A DNA stretch of 64,000 bases from Chryseolinea sp. (lineage in GTDB: Bacteria > Bacteroidota > Bacteroidia > Cytophagales > Cyclobacteriaceae): positions 62,001 through 126,000 of the forward strand of contig JAICGJ010000001.1 of assembly GCA_025923195.1 (NCBI GenBank), written 5' to 3'. Made by a program: the position numbers and the translations under genes. The notes below the pieces were generated by a model. The model ran no database searches. It was not told the DNA's origin and worked only from the letters and a program-made list of their open reading frames with translations. Shown piece by piece: positions 22,278 to 40,415 of this stretch (its first letter is position 1; each line of letters opens with the position of its first letter).

Positions 22278-22286
22278 TGGAGGTTT

Positions 22287-22300
22287 GTTTCACGTGGAAC
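22287..22300. promoter_or_regulatory. parS-like ParB binding site 1
   Basis: GTTTCACGTGGAAC differs at a single base from the 14-base core GTTTCACGTGAAAC of the chromosomal centromere site parS; with its flanks (T before, G after) it matches 14 of 16 bases of TGTTTCACGTGAAACA. It is non-coding and lies upstream of mnmG. An identical copy is 52 bases downstream. Confidence 0.75.
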
Positions 22301-22304
22301 GAAT

Positions 22305-22334
22305 TGTGGAAATGTGGATGAATTTTGTGGGTAA
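22305..22334 (-). promoter_or_regulatory. cluster of DnaA-box-like motifs between the parS-like sites
   Basis: On the minus strand the region reads TCATCCACA (plus 22313-22321) and TTACCCACA (22326-22334), each one base from the DnaA box TTATCCACA. A third TGTGGA repeat (22305-22310) is a weaker match. Three TGTGG units in 26 bases, framed by the two parS-like sites, look more organised than chance, though no box is perfect. Confidence 0.45.
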
Positions 22335-22338
22335 GTCC

Positions 22339-22352
22339 GTTTCACGTGGAAC
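22339..22352. promoter_or_regulatory. parS-like ParB binding site 2
   Basis: This is a second exact copy of GTTTCACGTGGAAC, 52 bases (about five helical turns) from copy 1, so both would face the same side of the DNA. It ends 14 bases before the mnmG start codon. Confidence 0.75.
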
Positions 22353-22366
22353 CTCGCTGACAGAAT

Positions 22367-24232
22367 ATGTTTAAACAATATGATGTAATTGTAATTGGGG
22401 CCGGACATGCAGGCTGTGAAGCCGCAAATGCAGCCGCATCAATGGGGTCATCGGTTCTCCTCGTGACGATGAATATGAACACCATTGCCCAAATGTCCTG
22501 CAACCCTGCAATGGGTGGCGTGGCCAAGGGTCAAATAGTTCGCGAGATTGACGCCCTGGGCGGATTGTCCGGAATTGTTTCAGACAAATCAATGATTCAA
22601 TTCAGAATGTTAAATCTGTCAAAGGGGCCGGCCATGTGGAGCCCGCGTACTCAAAATGACAGAATGCGTTTCTCGGAGGAATGGCGCTTAGCTCTTGAGA
22701 GAAATCCAAACATTGACTTCTGGCAAGAAATGGTGAAAGGCCTCCTAATTGAAAATGGGAAGGTGACCGGAATTACTACGAATCTGGGCCTAAAGATCAT
22801 GGCCAAGGCCGTGATATTAACCAATGGAACATTCCTTAATGGCAAAATACATATCGGCGAAAAAAACTTCGGCGGCGGACGAGCCGCCGAAAATGCGGCC
22901 TTCGGAATAACCGAACAACTTGTGCAACTAGGCTTCGACTCGGGCCGAATGAAAACCGGAACGCCTCCCCGCGTCGACGGGCGCAGCCTGAACTATGCGA
23001 AAATGGAGGAACAGCCCGGTGATGAAAACCCTGGTAAATTCTCATTCCTCCCTCAAACACGCCCGCTCCATAAACAGGTCAGCTGCTGGATTACCTATAC
23101 AAACGAAAAGGTTCACGACGAACTTCGAAAGGGCTTTGATAAATCGCCAATGTTCCAGGGAAGAATCAAAGGGATAGGACCAAGATACTGCCCGTCTGTA
23201 GAAGATAAGATAAACCGTTTCGCTGAGAGAGAACGGCATCAAATCTTCGTTGAGCCGGAAGGGTGGAATACGATAGAAATTTATGTTAATGGGTTTTCAA
23301 CGTCACTGCCTGAGGACGTTCAGTACAAAGCACTTACCAAAATACCAGGCTTCGAAAACGCCAGAATGTTTAGACCTGGCTATGCAATTGAATACGATTA
23401 CTTTCCACCAACTCAACTTAAGTTAACCCTTGAAACGCAAGTTATTGATAATCTGTACTTTGCGGGCCAGATTAATGGCACGACCGGATATGAGGAAGCT
23501 GCGTGCCAGGGCTTGATGGCAGGCATCAACGCGCACAACAAGATTCACTCGAAAGAGCCGTTTGTATTAAAAAGGTCTGATGCCTATATCGGCGTCTTGA
23601 TCGACGACCTCGTAAACAAAGGTACACTGGAGCCATACCGCATGTTCACTTCCCGCGCGGAGTATAGAATCCTTTTACGGCAGGACAACGCAGACCTTCG
23701 ACTTACTGAAATTGGTTACCGACTGGGATTGGCATCACGCGAAAGGTTCGATGCTCTCCTGGCGAAGAAAATCGAAATCGCCCAGCTCGGAAGCGAACTG
23801 ACGAAACTCAAATTAGATCCCGATACCGTTAATGATAGCCTTGTGGATTTAAATACCTCCGCATTAAAAGAAAAAATAAGTATCTCCCAACTACTAAAAC
23901 GCCCGCAAATACAGATCACGGACCTCAAAAAAGTGAATTCTCAATTGGCGCAAGTAATTAACGCATACTCACCCGAAGTGCGGCAACAGGTCGAAATCAA
24001 CATCAAGTATGAAAGCTACATCGCAAGGGAAGAAGTCTTGGCAAAAAAACTCGGAAATCTGGAAGGGTTCAGAATTTTGCCCGATTTTGATTACGACCGC
24101 GTTAAAGCTCTTTCCTCCGAAGCACGAGAAAAATTGAAGCGATTAAAGCCAGAAACCGTTGGCCAAGCTTCCCGAATCAGTGGAGTTTCCCCTGCTGATC
24201 TATCAGTCCTGACAATCTATATGGGGAAATGA
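22367..24232 (+). CDS. mnmG: tRNA uridine-5-carboxymethylaminomethyl synthesis enzyme MnmG
   Basis: The 621-residue FAD protein (formerly GidA) works with MnmE to modify the wobble uridine of several tRNAs. The FAD site GAGHAG is at 11-16 after strand YDVIVI. SCNPAMGGVAKG, MKTGTPPRVDGRS, and FAGQINGTTGYEEAA are the family signatures, and the helical MnmE/tRNA-binding tail ends in GQASRISGVSPADLSVL. Its length is normal. The ATG overlaps nothing upstream; the TGA overlaps the next ATG (ATGA), so the three following genes form a tightly coupled unit. The plus strand is richer in C than G here, unlike the genes before it. Confidence 0.97.
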   Translation: MFKQYDVIVIGAGHAGCEAANAAASMGSSVLLVTMNMNTIAQMSCNPAMGGVAKGQIVREIDALGGLSGIVSDKSMIQFRMLNLSKGPAMWSPRTQNDRMRFSEEWRLALERNPNIDFWQEMVKGLLIENGKVTGITTNLGLKIMAKAVILTNGTFLNGKIHIGEKNFGGGRAAENAAFGITEQLVQLGFDSGRMKTGTPPRVDGRSLNYAKMEEQPGDENPGKFSFLPQTRPLHKQVSCWITYTNEKVHDELRKGFDKSPMFQGRIKGIGPRYCPSVEDKINRFAERERHQIFVEPEGWNTIEIYVNGFSTSLPEDVQYKALTKIPGFENARMFRPGYAIEYDYFPPTQLKLTLETQVIDNLYFAGQINGTTGYEEAACQGLMAGINAHNKIHSKEPFVLKRSDAYIGVLIDDLVNKGTLEPYRMFTSRAEYRILLRQDNADLRLTEIGYRLGLASRERFDALLAKKIEIAQLGSELTKLKLDPDTVNDSLVDLNTSALKEKISISQLLKRPQIQITDLKKVNSQLAQVINAYSPEVRQQVEINIKYESYIAREEVLAKKLGNLEGFRILPDFDYDRVKALSSEAREKLKRLKPETVGQASRISGVSPADLSVLTIYMGK

Positions 24233-25125
24233 CCGAAATTACACAATGCCCCATTTGTAACGGCATCAGCTTTGCTCCATTCATTACTTGTATTGATCAC
24301 GCCGTTTCACATGAAACTTTTCATTTGATCAAATGCACGGATTGTGAACTCGTCATCACAAGTCCACGCCCGACCACAGAACAAGGAAAACGATATTATG
24401 AATCTCCCGCCTATATATCACACAGTAATAAAGCGCAGACATTCATTGACAAGATCTATGTTACTGCTCGGACGTTCACATTAAAATGGAAGATGTCTAT
24501 CGTAGATAAACATGCCGCACCTTCACGTCAAAAAGCCCTGCTTGACTTCGGAACTGGCGTCGGTCAATTTTTGAAGCTTGCCAAATCGAATGGATGGGAT
24601 GTCGCTGGTGTCGAACCCTCAGAAATCGCCCGTCAGAAAGCACCAGATATTATTTCAAAAGATATCAGAGCTTCGCTAGATGAAATCACACACGGCAAAC
24701 AAAGATTTGATGTTATCACAGCATGGCATGTGATGGAGCATGTTCACGAACTCAGCGCAACGATTGAGACCTTAAAAAAACTTCTTCGGGAAAACGGGAC
24801 GCTCATCGTCGCGGTACCCAATCATCGCAGTTGGGATGCCCACCATTACAAACAAAATTGGGCAGCCTATGATGTCCCCAGACACCTTTGGCACTTTAGC
24901 GTGAAAAGCATGACCCGATTTCTCGAAAACCATTCGCTGAGAGTGACTGGCATAGTACCGATGCGGCTAGACGCATTTTATATTAGCCTGTTAAGCGAAA
25001 AATACCGCACCGGATCCTATACTATCCGAAGTGCAGCCACTAGTTTTACAAACGCCTTGCGCAGTAATCGCTATGCCAAAAAGTCAATGGAGTACTCCAG
25101 CTTAATATATATTGCTCATCGATGA
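24229..25125 (+). CDS. zinc-ribbon class I SAM methyltransferase
   Basis: The 298-residue protein starts with a zinc ribbon (Cys7, Cys10, Cys36, Cys39), followed by a methyltransferase core with motif I LLDFGTGVG at 104-112, acidic EP near 128 and the WHVMEHV segment that stands for motif IV/post-I in this family (Methyltransf_23-like). Proteins of this shape often modify sugars or small molecules, but the substrate is unknown. Start and stop codons overlap both neighbours by ATGA. A parS-like sequence, GTTTCACATGAAAC, lies inside the coding region at 24304-24317. Confidence 0.85.
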   Translation: MTEITQCPICNGISFAPFITCIDHAVSHETFHLIKCTDCELVITSPRPTTEQGKRYYESPAYISHSNKAQTFIDKIYVTARTFTLKWKMSIVDKHAAPSRQKALLDFGTGVGQFLKLAKSNGWDVAGVEPSEIARQKAPDIISKDIRASLDEITHGKQRFDVITAWHVMEHVHELSATIETLKKLLRENGTLIVAVPNHRSWDAHHYKQNWAAYDVPRHLWHFSVKSMTRFLENHSLRVTGIVPMRLDAFYISLLSEKYRTGSYTIRSAATSFTNALRSNRYAKKSMEYSSLIYIAHR

Positions 25126-26828
25126 ATCTAGCACGTCACAGCTATCTGATTCTTTATTCGATATTCGCCCTTTCATGCGCACGACAAACTGCACCTACGG
25201 GTGGACCAAAGGATTCTATTCCTCCCACCCTTATTTCGTCACAACCACGTTCGAATGAACTTAACTTTAAAGGTAAGACAATTCAGCTAGCGTTCTCTGA
25301 ACATATACTGCTCAATAATCCCAGAGATCAAATCATAATAACGCCAGACCTAGGCAAACCTGTTAATGCCACTTCCCGCAAAAATCAAGTGACCATCATC
25401 CTAGAAGATGATTTGAAACCCAACACTACCTACTCCATCAATTTCCGGGAGGCCATACAGGACATAACTGAAAAAAATCCTGCTGCCATGCTCAAACTAG
25501 CGTTCAGCACTGGCAGCTATATTGACTCGCTAGCAGTTGAAGGCAATGCTTTTGATCCACTAAGCGCCAAAGAAATTAAGGATGCTACGCTGGCGCTCTA
25601 TGAAAACGATACATTCAATATATTTAAGCATAGACCAACTTACGTCACCAAGTCGGACGCCAAGGGGCTCTTCAAAATTGAAAATCTTAAACCGGGCAAA
25701 TACTTTTTATACGGTTTCGAAGACAAGAACAAGAATCTCATTGTCGATAGCAAAACAGAATCTTATGGATTCTTACAAGAACCATTACAACTTGAAGAAA
25801 ATATCCGCGGGCTGAAAGTCCCGCTCGTGCGCCTTGACGGCAGACCATTAAAGTTAACCAGCAGCAGGCCGTCCGGCACTTATTTTAACATAAAGGCCAC
25901 GAAGAGTTTAAGCCACTACCAAATTACCACAACTGAACAAGAAACAATAATATCCTCCTTTGGCGAAGACCTTGCCAATATCCGCGTTTACAATACGTTC
26001 GAAGACAAAGATAGCGTCTCTATTCGCTTCACCGCCCTTGACAGCATCTCAAACACAATTGACACGACACTATACGTAAAATTCCTGAAACGGCAAGTGA
26101 CTCCGGAGGGCTTCGAACTAAATCTCGATAAATTCGAAGTCATCGGCACCAAGGGCGTTATAAGGGGGCAAATTCAATTCAACAAGCCAGTGTTAGCTGT
26201 AAACTTCGATAGTATTTTCTATCGAATCGACTCCACCCAAGTCATTCCCTTCAACGCTCAAAATATTCGCTGGGATAGTCTACGCAATATTCTCTTCATT
26301 GAAAAAACTTTCGATAGAAATCTCCTTCCCAAAGAAACTCCATCAACCTCAACTTCGGAACAAAGAAGAAGTGTCGCCGCATCCCCAATTCGACCTGCCG
26401 CAAAAACCTCTAAGACCTCAAACAAGAATCAATTCTACATGGGTAATGCGGCATTCATAAGCATTGAACTCGATAGTTCAAAAAGGGCAGTCAATAGCTA
26501 CCCACCAAGCAAGCTTGAAGACACAGGCATCATTCTCGTAGAAGTTCAAACGCAAGCACCACACTTCTTCGTCCAATTGTTGTCCAAGGATTTTCAGATG
26601 CTGCGCTCTGTGGCCAATTTGAGAAAATTCAATTTTGAGGACCTTAAACCCGGTGACTATCAATTGCGTTTAGTTATAGATGAAAACAACGATGGGCGGT
26701 GGGATCCTGGCAACTTTTATCTCAAGCGACAACCCGAGGAAATCCTTTTCTATAAGAACGAAAAGGGTTCTCCTTTGATAAATCTCAAGGCCAACTGGGA
26801 ACTCGGCCCATTGTTAATAAAACACTGA
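25122..26828 (+). CDS. Ig-like (Big_5) domain lipoprotein
   Basis: The 568-residue protein is a lipoprotein with Cys19 in ALSC. The mature start contains TAPTGGPKDSIPPTL, a signature of a Bacteroidota surface/periplasmic family whose first domain is Ig-like Big_5 (about 32-130: IQLAFSEHI, LKPNTTYSINF). A carboxypeptidase-regulatory-like or prealbumin-type segment follows (GLFKIENLKPGKYFLYGFEDKNKN near 180-205) and a second such motif near the end (FNFEDLKPGDYQLRLVIDENNDG). The middle holds a Ser/Thr-rich linker near 405-430. Function unknown; envelope location is well supported. It ends the mnmG unit. Confidence 0.82.
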   Translation: MNLARHSYLILYSIFALSCARQTAPTGGPKDSIPPTLISSQPRSNELNFKGKTIQLAFSEHILLNNPRDQIIITPDLGKPVNATSRKNQVTIILEDDLKPNTTYSINFREAIQDITEKNPAAMLKLAFSTGSYIDSLAVEGNAFDPLSAKEIKDATLALYENDTFNIFKHRPTYVTKSDAKGLFKIENLKPGKYFLYGFEDKNKNLIVDSKTESYGFLQEPLQLEENIRGLKVPLVRLDGRPLKLTSSRPSGTYFNIKATKSLSHYQITTTEQETIISSFGEDLANIRVYNTFEDKDSVSIRFTALDSISNTIDTTLYVKFLKRQVTPEGFELNLDKFEVIGTKGVIRGQIQFNKPVLAVNFDSIFYRIDSTQVIPFNAQNIRWDSLRNILFIEKTFDRNLLPKETPSTSTSEQRRSVAASPIRPAAKTSKTSNKNQFYMGNAAFISIELDSSKRAVNSYPPSKLEDTGIILVEVQTQAPHFFVQLLSKDFQMLRSVANLRKFNFEDLKPGDYQLRLVIDENNDGRWDPGNFYLKRQPEEILFYKNEKGSPLINLKANWELGPLLIKH

Positions 26829-27142
26829 CAACGTGTTGATAGCTTCCGTAAACCAGGAGTTTCAACCGTTCATAATTTGATTGTAACGATTTCGTCATTA
26901 TTGATGTTCACAAAACAAGCTTTACACACATCGGTTAACATTCGGTTCCATACACACAAATTCTATCCACACACTTACAGCAATGTTGAACAGTCACCAA
27001 ACCATTGAAAATTAGTTACTTGTCACTCCATAGATATCCACATGAATTCAACGGGTAAAAGGCAGCCAACTAGTGAACATTTCAACATTGTTAACTATAT
27101 TAATAACATATATATTAAATAATAGTAACAAGTACCAACTGC
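26829..27142. other. candidate chromosomal replication origin (oriC-like intergenic region)
   Basis: The 314-base gap carries no gene but has origin-like features. DnaA-box-like sites, each one base off TTATCCACA or its relaxed form TTWTNCACA, are CTATCCACA (26963-26971), ATATCCACA (27034-27042) and CTTTACACA (26920-26928); weaker ones are CCATACACA (26948-26956) and ATGTTCACA (26903-26911). Two TACACACA repeats lie at 26923 and 26951. At the right end an almost pure A/T stretch (about 27090-27127) could serve as the unwinding element. There is no perfect DnaA box. The two parS-like sites and mnmG are 2.6-4.5 kb to the left. The identification is inference. Confidence 0.45.
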
Positions 27143-29035
27143 ATGCGGATAACATTGATCCTCTTACTTTTAGCAACGCTAACCCAGGCTCAGAACCAGG
27201 ATGATATCCAGCTGGCTAATGAATACCTATTAAAAGGCGATAAAAAGAAAGCACTGGAAATGTTTAAGGAGCTTGCTAAACAAGAAGCTAATCATCCATA
27301 CATATATAACAACTACTTCAATTTGTTGCTCGATATTAGTGCATTTGATGAGGCGCAAAAATTTCTTCAAAAGCTTTCTAAGAAAGATCCTCTGAATATT
27401 CAATACAATTTGGACCATGGACTTATTTTCGTACGATCTGGAGAGCTATCTAAAGCTGACAGATATTACAAAGATCTGATATCCGAAAATAAGAGCAACG
27501 CACAGCGCATTAAGATGATGTCGGATTTCTTTATGGCAAGGTCGCTCGTCGATTATGGCATTCAGGCATTAAGCGATAGCAGGCAAGCCTTAGGAAATCC
27601 TTATTTGTTTTGTCTGGAGCTGGCCATGCTCCATCGCATCAAGGGAAATCAGGACAAAATGGTGCAGGAATATTTGAGCTACGTAACGCAGAGCTCTGCC
27701 AATATTCAATACGTTAAAAATGTTATGCAGGCGTTATTGACCAAACCTGAGGAATTAGAAAGCCTGGAAAAACTTCTTTATGAAAAAATTCAGGCTCATC
27801 CAGATGTAGAGGTCTACTCAGACTTATTGATCTGGGTAACGATGCAACAAAAAAACTTTTATGCTTCATTCATACAGGCGCGTGCGTACGACAAGCGATA
27901 TAGGAGGGAAGGAGAAAAATCCATGGAGGTTGCACGTGTTGCCTTGGACAATGAAGATTACGACAATGCCTTAAAGGTATATCGTTATGTTATTCGTGAA
28001 TTTCCCAATACACAAACCTACTTGCTGGCAAGACTGGGCCTCATCCGAACACGCGAAGCACGGGTTAAAAAATCTTTTCCTGTAAATAAAGATTCGGTCC
28101 AAATTCTTATTGACGATTATAGAGACTTCACAAATCAATATCCGGACAACGTTAACTCACTGGAGGCAGCCAGAAGCGAGGCGCTGCTCTTTGCCAACTA
28201 TCTGGATCAAAAAGATTCTGCTATCCACATCATCAGCAAACTTCTTTTGAATCCAAGAACATCGCTTCATCTGAAATCAAAAGCTAAGCTTGATTTGGGT
28301 GATATATACTTGCTAAAAGGAGAACCATGGGAATCAACTTTGCTGTATTCGCAGGTTGAGAAAGTGCAAAAGGAAAATCCTATCGGATATGAGGCCAAAC
28401 TCAAAAATGCGAAGTTATCGTATTACAAAGGTGATTTTCGTCTTGCTCAGGAACACCTGGACATATTAAAGCAGGCCACAACAAGGGAAATAGCGAATGA
28501 TGCACTAGACCTGAGTATGAGGATCAAGGAAAACATTGCTTTCGACTCTGTCGGCGAAGCATTGAAACAATATGCATCAATAGAATTACTGCTTTATCAA
28601 AATAAAAATGAAGAAGCCCTTAAACAGATTGAATTATTGAAAGAAGGCAGGGTACAAAAATCGCCAAATGTGAAAACTGGAGGCGCGATATTGTCGAACC
28701 AGACCGATTCTACCCTGAGCATTTCCAATCAGACCATATTGGATGATGTCTACTGGCTGGAGGCTAACATCAGAATGCGTCAAGGTGAGTTCGAAAAATC
28801 CATTGGCCTGTTGGAGAAGATCATTCAGGACTATGGCGATGACATACTGGCTGATGATGCGTATTTCCTGCGAGCTGAAATCTATGAACGTCAACTTTCT
28901 CAAAAGGACAAGGCAATGGAGATTTACAGGGAATTCCTGAATAAGTATCCAGGCAGCGTGTACGCAGCTGAGGCGCGTAAGAGATACAGATCATTACGAG
29001 GTGATTTTAATGGTCAAGAACAACCCCAAATGTAG
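27143..29035 (+). CDS. secreted tetratricopeptide repeat protein
   Basis: The 630-residue protein has a signal peptide ending near TQA-Q (residue 16) and is helical throughout with TPR units, for example ANEYLLKGDKKKALEMFKEL at about 25-44, FVRSGELSKADRYYKDLI near 98-115, and C-terminal MRQGEFEKSIGLLEKIIQDY and QKDKAMEIYREFLNKYPGS. The C-terminal repeats resemble the YbgF/BamD-type TPRs used in envelope complexes. It is likely periplasmic and a protein-protein scaffold; the partner is not evident. The start ATG directly follows the AT-rich region, leaving little space for a usual promoter. Confidence 0.85.
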   Translation: MRITLILLLLATLTQAQNQDDIQLANEYLLKGDKKKALEMFKELAKQEANHPYIYNNYFNLLLDISAFDEAQKFLQKLSKKDPLNIQYNLDHGLIFVRSGELSKADRYYKDLISENKSNAQRIKMMSDFFMARSLVDYGIQALSDSRQALGNPYLFCLELAMLHRIKGNQDKMVQEYLSYVTQSSANIQYVKNVMQALLTKPEELESLEKLLYEKIQAHPDVEVYSDLLIWVTMQQKNFYASFIQARAYDKRYRREGEKSMEVARVALDNEDYDNALKVYRYVIREFPNTQTYLLARLGLIRTREARVKKSFPVNKDSVQILIDDYRDFTNQYPDNVNSLEAARSEALLFANYLDQKDSAIHIISKLLLNPRTSLHLKSKAKLDLGDIYLLKGEPWESTLLYSQVEKVQKENPIGYEAKLKNAKLSYYKGDFRLAQEHLDILKQATTREIANDALDLSMRIKENIAFDSVGEALKQYASIELLLYQNKNEEALKQIELLKEGRVQKSPNVKTGGAILSNQTDSTLSISNQTILDDVYWLEANIRMRQGEFEKSIGLLEKIIQDYGDDILADDAYFLRAEIYERQLSQKDKAMEIYREFLNKYPGSVYAAEARKRYRSLRGDFNGQEQPQM

Positions 29036-39640: not shown

Positions 39641-40126
39641 CTAATTGAGGGAAGCAATAAGTTTTTCAATTTCACCCTCCTTCAATTCCTTTTCCACAAA
39701 CTTTCGTTTGCCGGTTTTGGGATTGAATACAAGCGTCGCCGGAATCGCACCGCTCCATCCTCTGTCAACCTTGTCTATCCACGAATTATAGTCGATCTCA
39801 TCAAGTAACAACACCTCCGACTTGATGTTCTTGCGGGCTATGAATTCATTGACTTTTTCCACTTTATCGGCATAGTCGAGGTTGATAAGAGTGATTTTAG
39901 CATTAAATCTATTTTCAGTATTTAGTTTTTCCAGGAGTGGAAGCTCTTTTATACAAGGCGCGCACCACAGTGCCCAAAAATTCAATACTTGGATTTGATC
40001 GGATTTCGTCTGCAAAATTTTCTGGAGCTCATCAAATCTTATCACCGTGGCACTTTGCGCCATAAGAGCCTTTTCGACAAAAAAGAACACGGTTACCGCC
40101 ATTATTAATTTGCCCCAAACTCTCAT
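39641..40126 (-). CDS. TlpA-like thiol-disulfide reductase
   Basis: From ATG 40126 the protein has 161 residues with a signal peptide ending near LMAQ (residue 24), then a thioredoxin domain with WCAPC at 54-58 and AIPATLVFNPKTG holding the cis-Pro. It should reduce disulfides of periplasmic or cytochrome-type proteins. An open frame reaches 22 codons further but adds polar residues before the signal peptide; ATG 40138 is another option. It forms a pair with the downstream redoxin. Confidence 0.87.
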   Translation of the reverse strand: MRVWGKLIMAVTVFFFVEKALMAQSATVIRFDELQKILQTKSDQIQVLNFWALWCAPCIKELPLLEKLNTENRFNAKITLINLDYADKVEKVNEFIARKNIKSEVLLLDEIDYNSWIDKVDRGWSGAIPATLVFNPKTGKRKFVEKELKEGEIEKLIASLN

Positions 40127-40254
40127 TTTTGAATGCATAAGAATATCAGTTTTTTTAGAACATGAAGTGTCGTCAACCTTATATAAATCCATTATAATTC
40201 AAGTACTTAGAATTAAAAAAAAACAGTCAAAAAGAATTCCACAAATCTGAGCAC

Positions 40255-40263
40255 TTATCCACA
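40255..40263 (+). promoter_or_regulatory. perfect DnaA box in a divergent intergenic region
   Basis: TTATCCACA is an exact consensus DnaA box inside the AT-rich 289-base gap 40127-40415. TGTGGACAA at 40332-40340 is a near match on the other strand. A single perfect box is expected about once per 130 kb on one strand by chance, so this alone does not prove an origin. The gap also holds the promoters of the two divergent genes; TCATTTTG at 40403-40410 is a 7/8 -7 box for the plus-strand gene. Confidence 0.3.
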
Positions 40264-40415
40264 TCAAGGGTGTATGAATCATTAACATCAACATTATCAA
40301 TTAGTTATAAGGAATTTTTTCAATGGTTTCTTGTGGACAACTTGAAAAGGAGTTTTAGACATCGATATAAAGAAGAATATTTTACGGCTCAATGTAATGC
40401 TTTCATTTTGAACAT

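Follow-up and report, generated by a model that had tools for sequence, protein, structure and literature searches.

The 314-bp intergenic gap at positions 26829-27142 is very probably the chromosomal replication origin (oriC) of this Chryseolinea-like member of the Cytophagales, with an estimated probability of about 0.9. The window, i.e. the whole stretch of DNA that was analysed, is 64 kb long and comprises bases 62001-126000 of contig 1 of a 6.57 Mb genome assembled into 379 contigs. The assignment is based on computed properties: the position of the gap, its cluster of DnaA-like boxes, a weak duplex, conservation, and the GC skew and coding polarity near the gap in relatives. From these, we infer that DnaA binding, unwinding and initiation occur at the gap in this species. 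The gap has a GC content of 34% and is delimited by the stop codon of a gene for a Big_5 (Ig-like) protein at 26828 and the ATG of a tetratricopeptide repeat (TPR) protein gene at 27143, coordinates that confirm the extent given in the original prediction. As an origin it is of an ordinary type, and its gene neighbourhood is conserved. The relevant features are:

22286..22301, plus strand: parS-like site TGTTTCACGTGGAACG in the ybeY-mnmG gap, with parS at the equivalent place in relatives
22338..22353, plus strand: second parS-like site, CGTTTCACGTGGAACC
22367..24232, plus strand: mnmG (gidA), conserved origin neighbour
25122..26828, plus strand: Big_5/DUF2141 (Ig-like) protein gene, left border of oriC in much of the order
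26829..27142, unstranded: candidate oriC, intergenic between the Big_5 and TPR genes
26920..26928, plus strand: weak DnaA-like site CTTTACACA, a single mismatch to TTWTNCACA only
26950..26958, plus strand: ATACACACA, second of the paired TACACACA repeats, weakly DnaA-like
26963..26971, plus strand: predicted DnaA box CTATCCACA, one mismatch; TATCCACAC/TATACACAC preserved among relatives
27034..27042, plus strand: predicted DnaA box ATATCCACA, one mismatch
27079..27128, unstranded: probable DNA unwinding element; no 50-bp duplex elsewhere in the 64 kb is less stable
27143..29035, plus strand: TPR protein gene, right border of oriC in much of the order
27144..27152, minus strand: predicted DnaA box TTATCCGCA overlapping the start codon of the TPR gene and oriented towards the A/T tract

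A box consensus resembling TTATCCACA is expected, since domain IV of DnaA retains the GGRDHSTVIHA signature. No perfect DnaA box is present in the gap, as the original prediction had recognised, and the gap's own boxes are weak. The prediction had placed three sites one base from consensus; this holds for CTATCCACA and ATATCCACA, each of which deviates from TTATCCACA by one base, but not for CTTTACACA, which comes within one base of the loose consensus TTWTNCACA only and is three bases off TTATCCACA. The paired TACACACA words are present as described, at 26923 and 26951. One box had been overlooked, TTATCCGCA on the minus strand just beyond the right end of the gap, and many relatives carry boxes of the form ATGTGBATAA at the equivalent position. 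Together, the gap and the TPR start contain three boxes that differ from TTATCCACA by no more than one base where 0.17 are expected, a cluster beyond chance and the sole 344-bp stretch with three such boxes in the 128-kb contig. With the loose consensus, five sites are found at the gap, a number reached at just two other places in the window, including 40071-40415.

At the right end of the gap, adjoining the boxes, lies the weakest 50-mer of the window (starting at 27079), an easily unwound A/T-rich element. Positions 27091-27124 contain just two G/C among 34 bases, which bears out the nearly pure A/T tract noted earlier. The basal unwinding system consists of a DnaA box, a spacer with a length peak at 10-13 bp, and DnaA-trios (PMC8287927), and was scored here as a DnaA box followed by a spacer of at most 16 nt and at least three DnaA-trios. 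Many relatives contain this arrangement at a fixed spot by the A/T tract, and in about 12 of them it takes the form of TTATMCACA, an 11-nt spacer and trio-type (C/T)TA-ATW-RTA repeats. The window species, unlike these relatives, has a degenerate form of the motif (p=0.77 for the best match), with the trio run interrupted and the box at this spot decayed to TAGTGAACA, and because of this decay it is not claimed for this species. Among the congeners in the genome collection, which include Chryseolinea serpens and C. lacunae, these two species and the complete genome G001 show a change of the TPR start codon from ATG to ATC or TTC, while a GGATAAC remnant of the overlapping box is kept. The open frame in these three loci extends back across the A/T tract as far as an ATG next to the final DnaA box. 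Translation there may therefore include the unwinding tract, or an alternative start may be used.

The gene order ybeY-parS-mnmG-methyltransferase-Big_5-[gap]-TPR is found in all Chryseolinea examined, in other genera and in one other family, and the order with its gap is kept across much of the Cytophagales. The gaps of relatives measure about 290-550 bp, and the arrangement persists where the TPR protein is merely 41-47% identical. Boxes are likewise enriched in these gaps, with 165 observed versus 6.2 expected over 29 genomes, 28 of which are individually significant. Among 22 named loci from Cyclobacteriaceae and Fulvivirgaceae the count is 63 (3.5 expected), and 19 additional members of the order yield 85 (4.3 expected). 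The gap of G040 holds 13 boxes, three of them perfect. In an alignment of the genus and its sister genera, box positions are preserved column by column. Exceptions to this conserved position are G038, G039 and G058, which keep the TPR gene next to a gap without a box, the Big_5 neighbour being evident in the latter two; several genomes in which no Big_5 gene was found next door likewise lack boxes. Homologues of the TPR protein in Flavobacteriia have neither the mnmG/Big_5 neighbours nor boxes, so that the TPR gene alone is no marker of oriC and an extension of the origin locus to the Flavobacteriia was rejected. The persistence of both neighbourhood and box cluster across much of the order favours the origin reading.

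GC skew was sampled from complete relatives, with a resolution of tens of kb rather than 314 bp. In G017, the skew changes from minus to plus at 1.76-1.84 Mb, with a local minimum at about 1.776 Mb and the gap at 1.750 Mb, and the reverse switch occurs at 4.1-4.4 Mb. In G034, the local minimum at 3.753-3.755 Mb is close to the gap at 3.763 Mb. The sign switch thus lies 8-26 kb from the gap in these two genomes, in both of which the opposite switch is close to the antipode. The GC skew of G001, from the same genus, is too weak for locating the origin; its coding-strand polarity peaks at 1.88-1.98 Mb, with the gap at 1.985 Mb, and switches again at 5.8-6.2 Mb, which fits the terminus. Less clear are G040 and G034, in which one of two polarity measures favours other places, the G040 signal being noisy. 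The strand polarity of tRNA genes was uninformative as an origin marker in three complete genomes. A search for 16S rRNA returned copies in only two of nine genomes; in G001, two minus-strand 16S rRNA operons on the left side of the gap agree with the origin but are too few. Overall, a compositional or coding-polarity switch near the gap in complete relatives, together with the conserved neighbourhood and boxes, supports the original interpretation as oriC.

The two parS-like sites, reported previously as lying 4.5 kb from the gap, were recovered at 22286 and 22338, and parS is found within about 5 kb of the gap in the relatives examined. Between both sites, the ybeY-mnmG gap (22278-22366) also contains the minus-strand DnaA-like words TCATCCACA and TTACCCACA. 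A third parS-like word with three mismatches, CGTTTCACATGAAACT, occurs at 24303-24318, close to where the methyltransferase gene that follows mnmG begins. The dnaA gene is located megabases from the gap in the complete genomes G001 and G017, and on a different contig in the window genome, as anticipated by the prediction that it would not adjoin the origin. A large distance between oriC and dnaA is common in Bacteroidetes (PMC4755523). The parB gene is also far from the gap; in G001 it is positioned at C1:6043271, nearly opposite the origin and close to the expected terminus.

The gap resembles bacterial origins that have DnaA boxes, an unwinding element and a nearby parS but are unlinked to dnaA, as reported for Bacteroidetes (PMC4755523). 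The common features are the box cluster, an A/T-rich tract for unwinding, parS no more than 5 kb away, mnmG (gidA) nearby, the skew switch close by in relatives and a distant dnaA. It differs in that the boxes of the window species are weaker than usual and in that its borders are formed by the Big_5 and TPR protein genes. In the proposed mechanism, DnaA supplied by the distant gene would bind the degenerate boxes of the gap together with the inverted box over the TPR start codon. The resulting DnaA oligomer would open the A/T tract (27079-27128) as the place of helicase loading, and replication would depart bidirectionally from the gap. The chromosome copies would be separated by ParB, bound at the parS sites 4.5 kb from the gap.

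The boxes might instead constitute a DnaA-controlled promoter of the TPR gene, with the origin elsewhere nearby, given that they are situated directly upstream of this gene and one overlaps its start codon. This explanation is improbable: the 8-13 boxes and the extreme A/T tract in many relatives go well beyond the needs of a promoter, the skew switches within 8-26 kb of the gap, and no second cluster of at least three boxes exists in the 128 kb. A further, unlikely candidate for the true oriC is the gap between the thioredoxin-like and nitronate monooxygenase genes (40193-40415), which harbours the window's single perfect DnaA box as well as its second weakest 50-bp duplex. It contains a DnaA-box module 13 kb from the candidate oriC, in which two head-to-tail boxes are followed by an IHF-like site and then by a third box in inverted orientation:

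40235..40340, unstranded: DnaA module, not oriC
40235, plus strand: module box AATTCCACA
40255, plus strand: module box TTATCCACA, a perfect DnaA box without a second example in the window
40295: module IHF-like site TATCAATTAGTTA
40332-40340, minus strand: module box TTGTCCACA

The perfect TTATCCACA at 40255, TTGTCCACA and AATTCCACA are conserved across all Chryseolinea examined. Still, the module has three boxes only, and in much of the family it is a single-copy element that in other genera is distant from the origin neighbourhood. Its distance from the TPR gap is 73 kb in G267 and 186 kb in G232 (module at 0.650 Mb, gap at 0.836 Mb). The TPR gap retains boxes of its own in both genomes, and in G232 there are nine, four of them perfect. 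In addition, the strict module pattern is absent from G017 and G034, in which the skew still marks the TPR gap. Because the module is this far from a TPR gap that itself keeps its boxes, the 40193-40415 gap was rejected as oriC and is given very little probability. Least credible is a chance cluster of DnaA-like words in A/T-rich intergenic DNA, which would suit the imperfection of every single site in the window species but is refuted by conservation and by the box counts (3 versus 0.17 expected in the window; 165 versus 6.2 over 29 genomes).

The module is best considered as an element separate from the gap at 26829-27142. Its strict pattern was defined as TCCACA, 11 nt, TTATCCACA, 60-76 nt and TGTGGA, about 100 bp in total. 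A scan of 391 genomes from the host's family found it in 220, with one copy per genome among the matches listed, and a control with the reversed pattern gave no match. In a class-wide sample it was found in 7 of 395 genomes, all from the host's family. Furthermore, 22 of the 41 modules read carry the IHF consensus WATCARNNNNTTR in the inner region, mostly at one offset, compared to 0.9% of shuffles. The flanking genes vary by lineage, being either thioredoxin-like and nitronate monooxygenase genes, thioredoxin-like and ClC channel genes, or convergent transglycosylase-like and ClC channel genes (gene names in the latter two sets were read from translations), so the module is not simply a promoter.

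In its minimal form, the datA site of Escherichia coli has three DnaA boxes, all of them essential, and a single IHF site (PMC10380432, PMC5742627). Like datA, the module is a single-copy intergenic element with three DnaA boxes and one predicted IHF site between them, whereas it differs in length (about 106 bp versus 187-262 bp for datA), in box spacing and orientation, and in phylum (PMC5742627, PMC10380432). By analogy with datA, which promotes the hydrolysis of DnaA-bound ATP and limits initiation, the module could be a datA-type site that titrates or inactivates DnaA after initiation, a Bacteroidota counterpart of E. coli datA probably of independent origin; we regard this assignment as tentative, its chance falling somewhat short of even. 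A classification as DARS was rejected, as boxes 1 and 2 are arranged head-to-tail and 20 bp apart, unlike the head-to-head boxes I and II of DARS; the inverted box of the module is 76-78 bp off.

No paper describing the gap origin or the module in Cytophagales was found in the literature search, which was weak for datA since the term also matched 'data'. Replicative oriC plasmids of Cytophaga hutchinsonii are mentioned as cited work in PMC5891637. The family-wide DnaA-box module looks new for the phylum Bacteroidota, and the module at 40235-40340 is a more novel item than the origin. With this separate three-box module, the question whether a datA-like site controls DnaA in Bacteroidota becomes directly testable. 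For much of the Cytophagales, the origin is placed at one conserved intergenic gap, and an origin so placed is of use for orienting assemblies, for growth-rate estimates based on read depth and for designing oriC plasmids.
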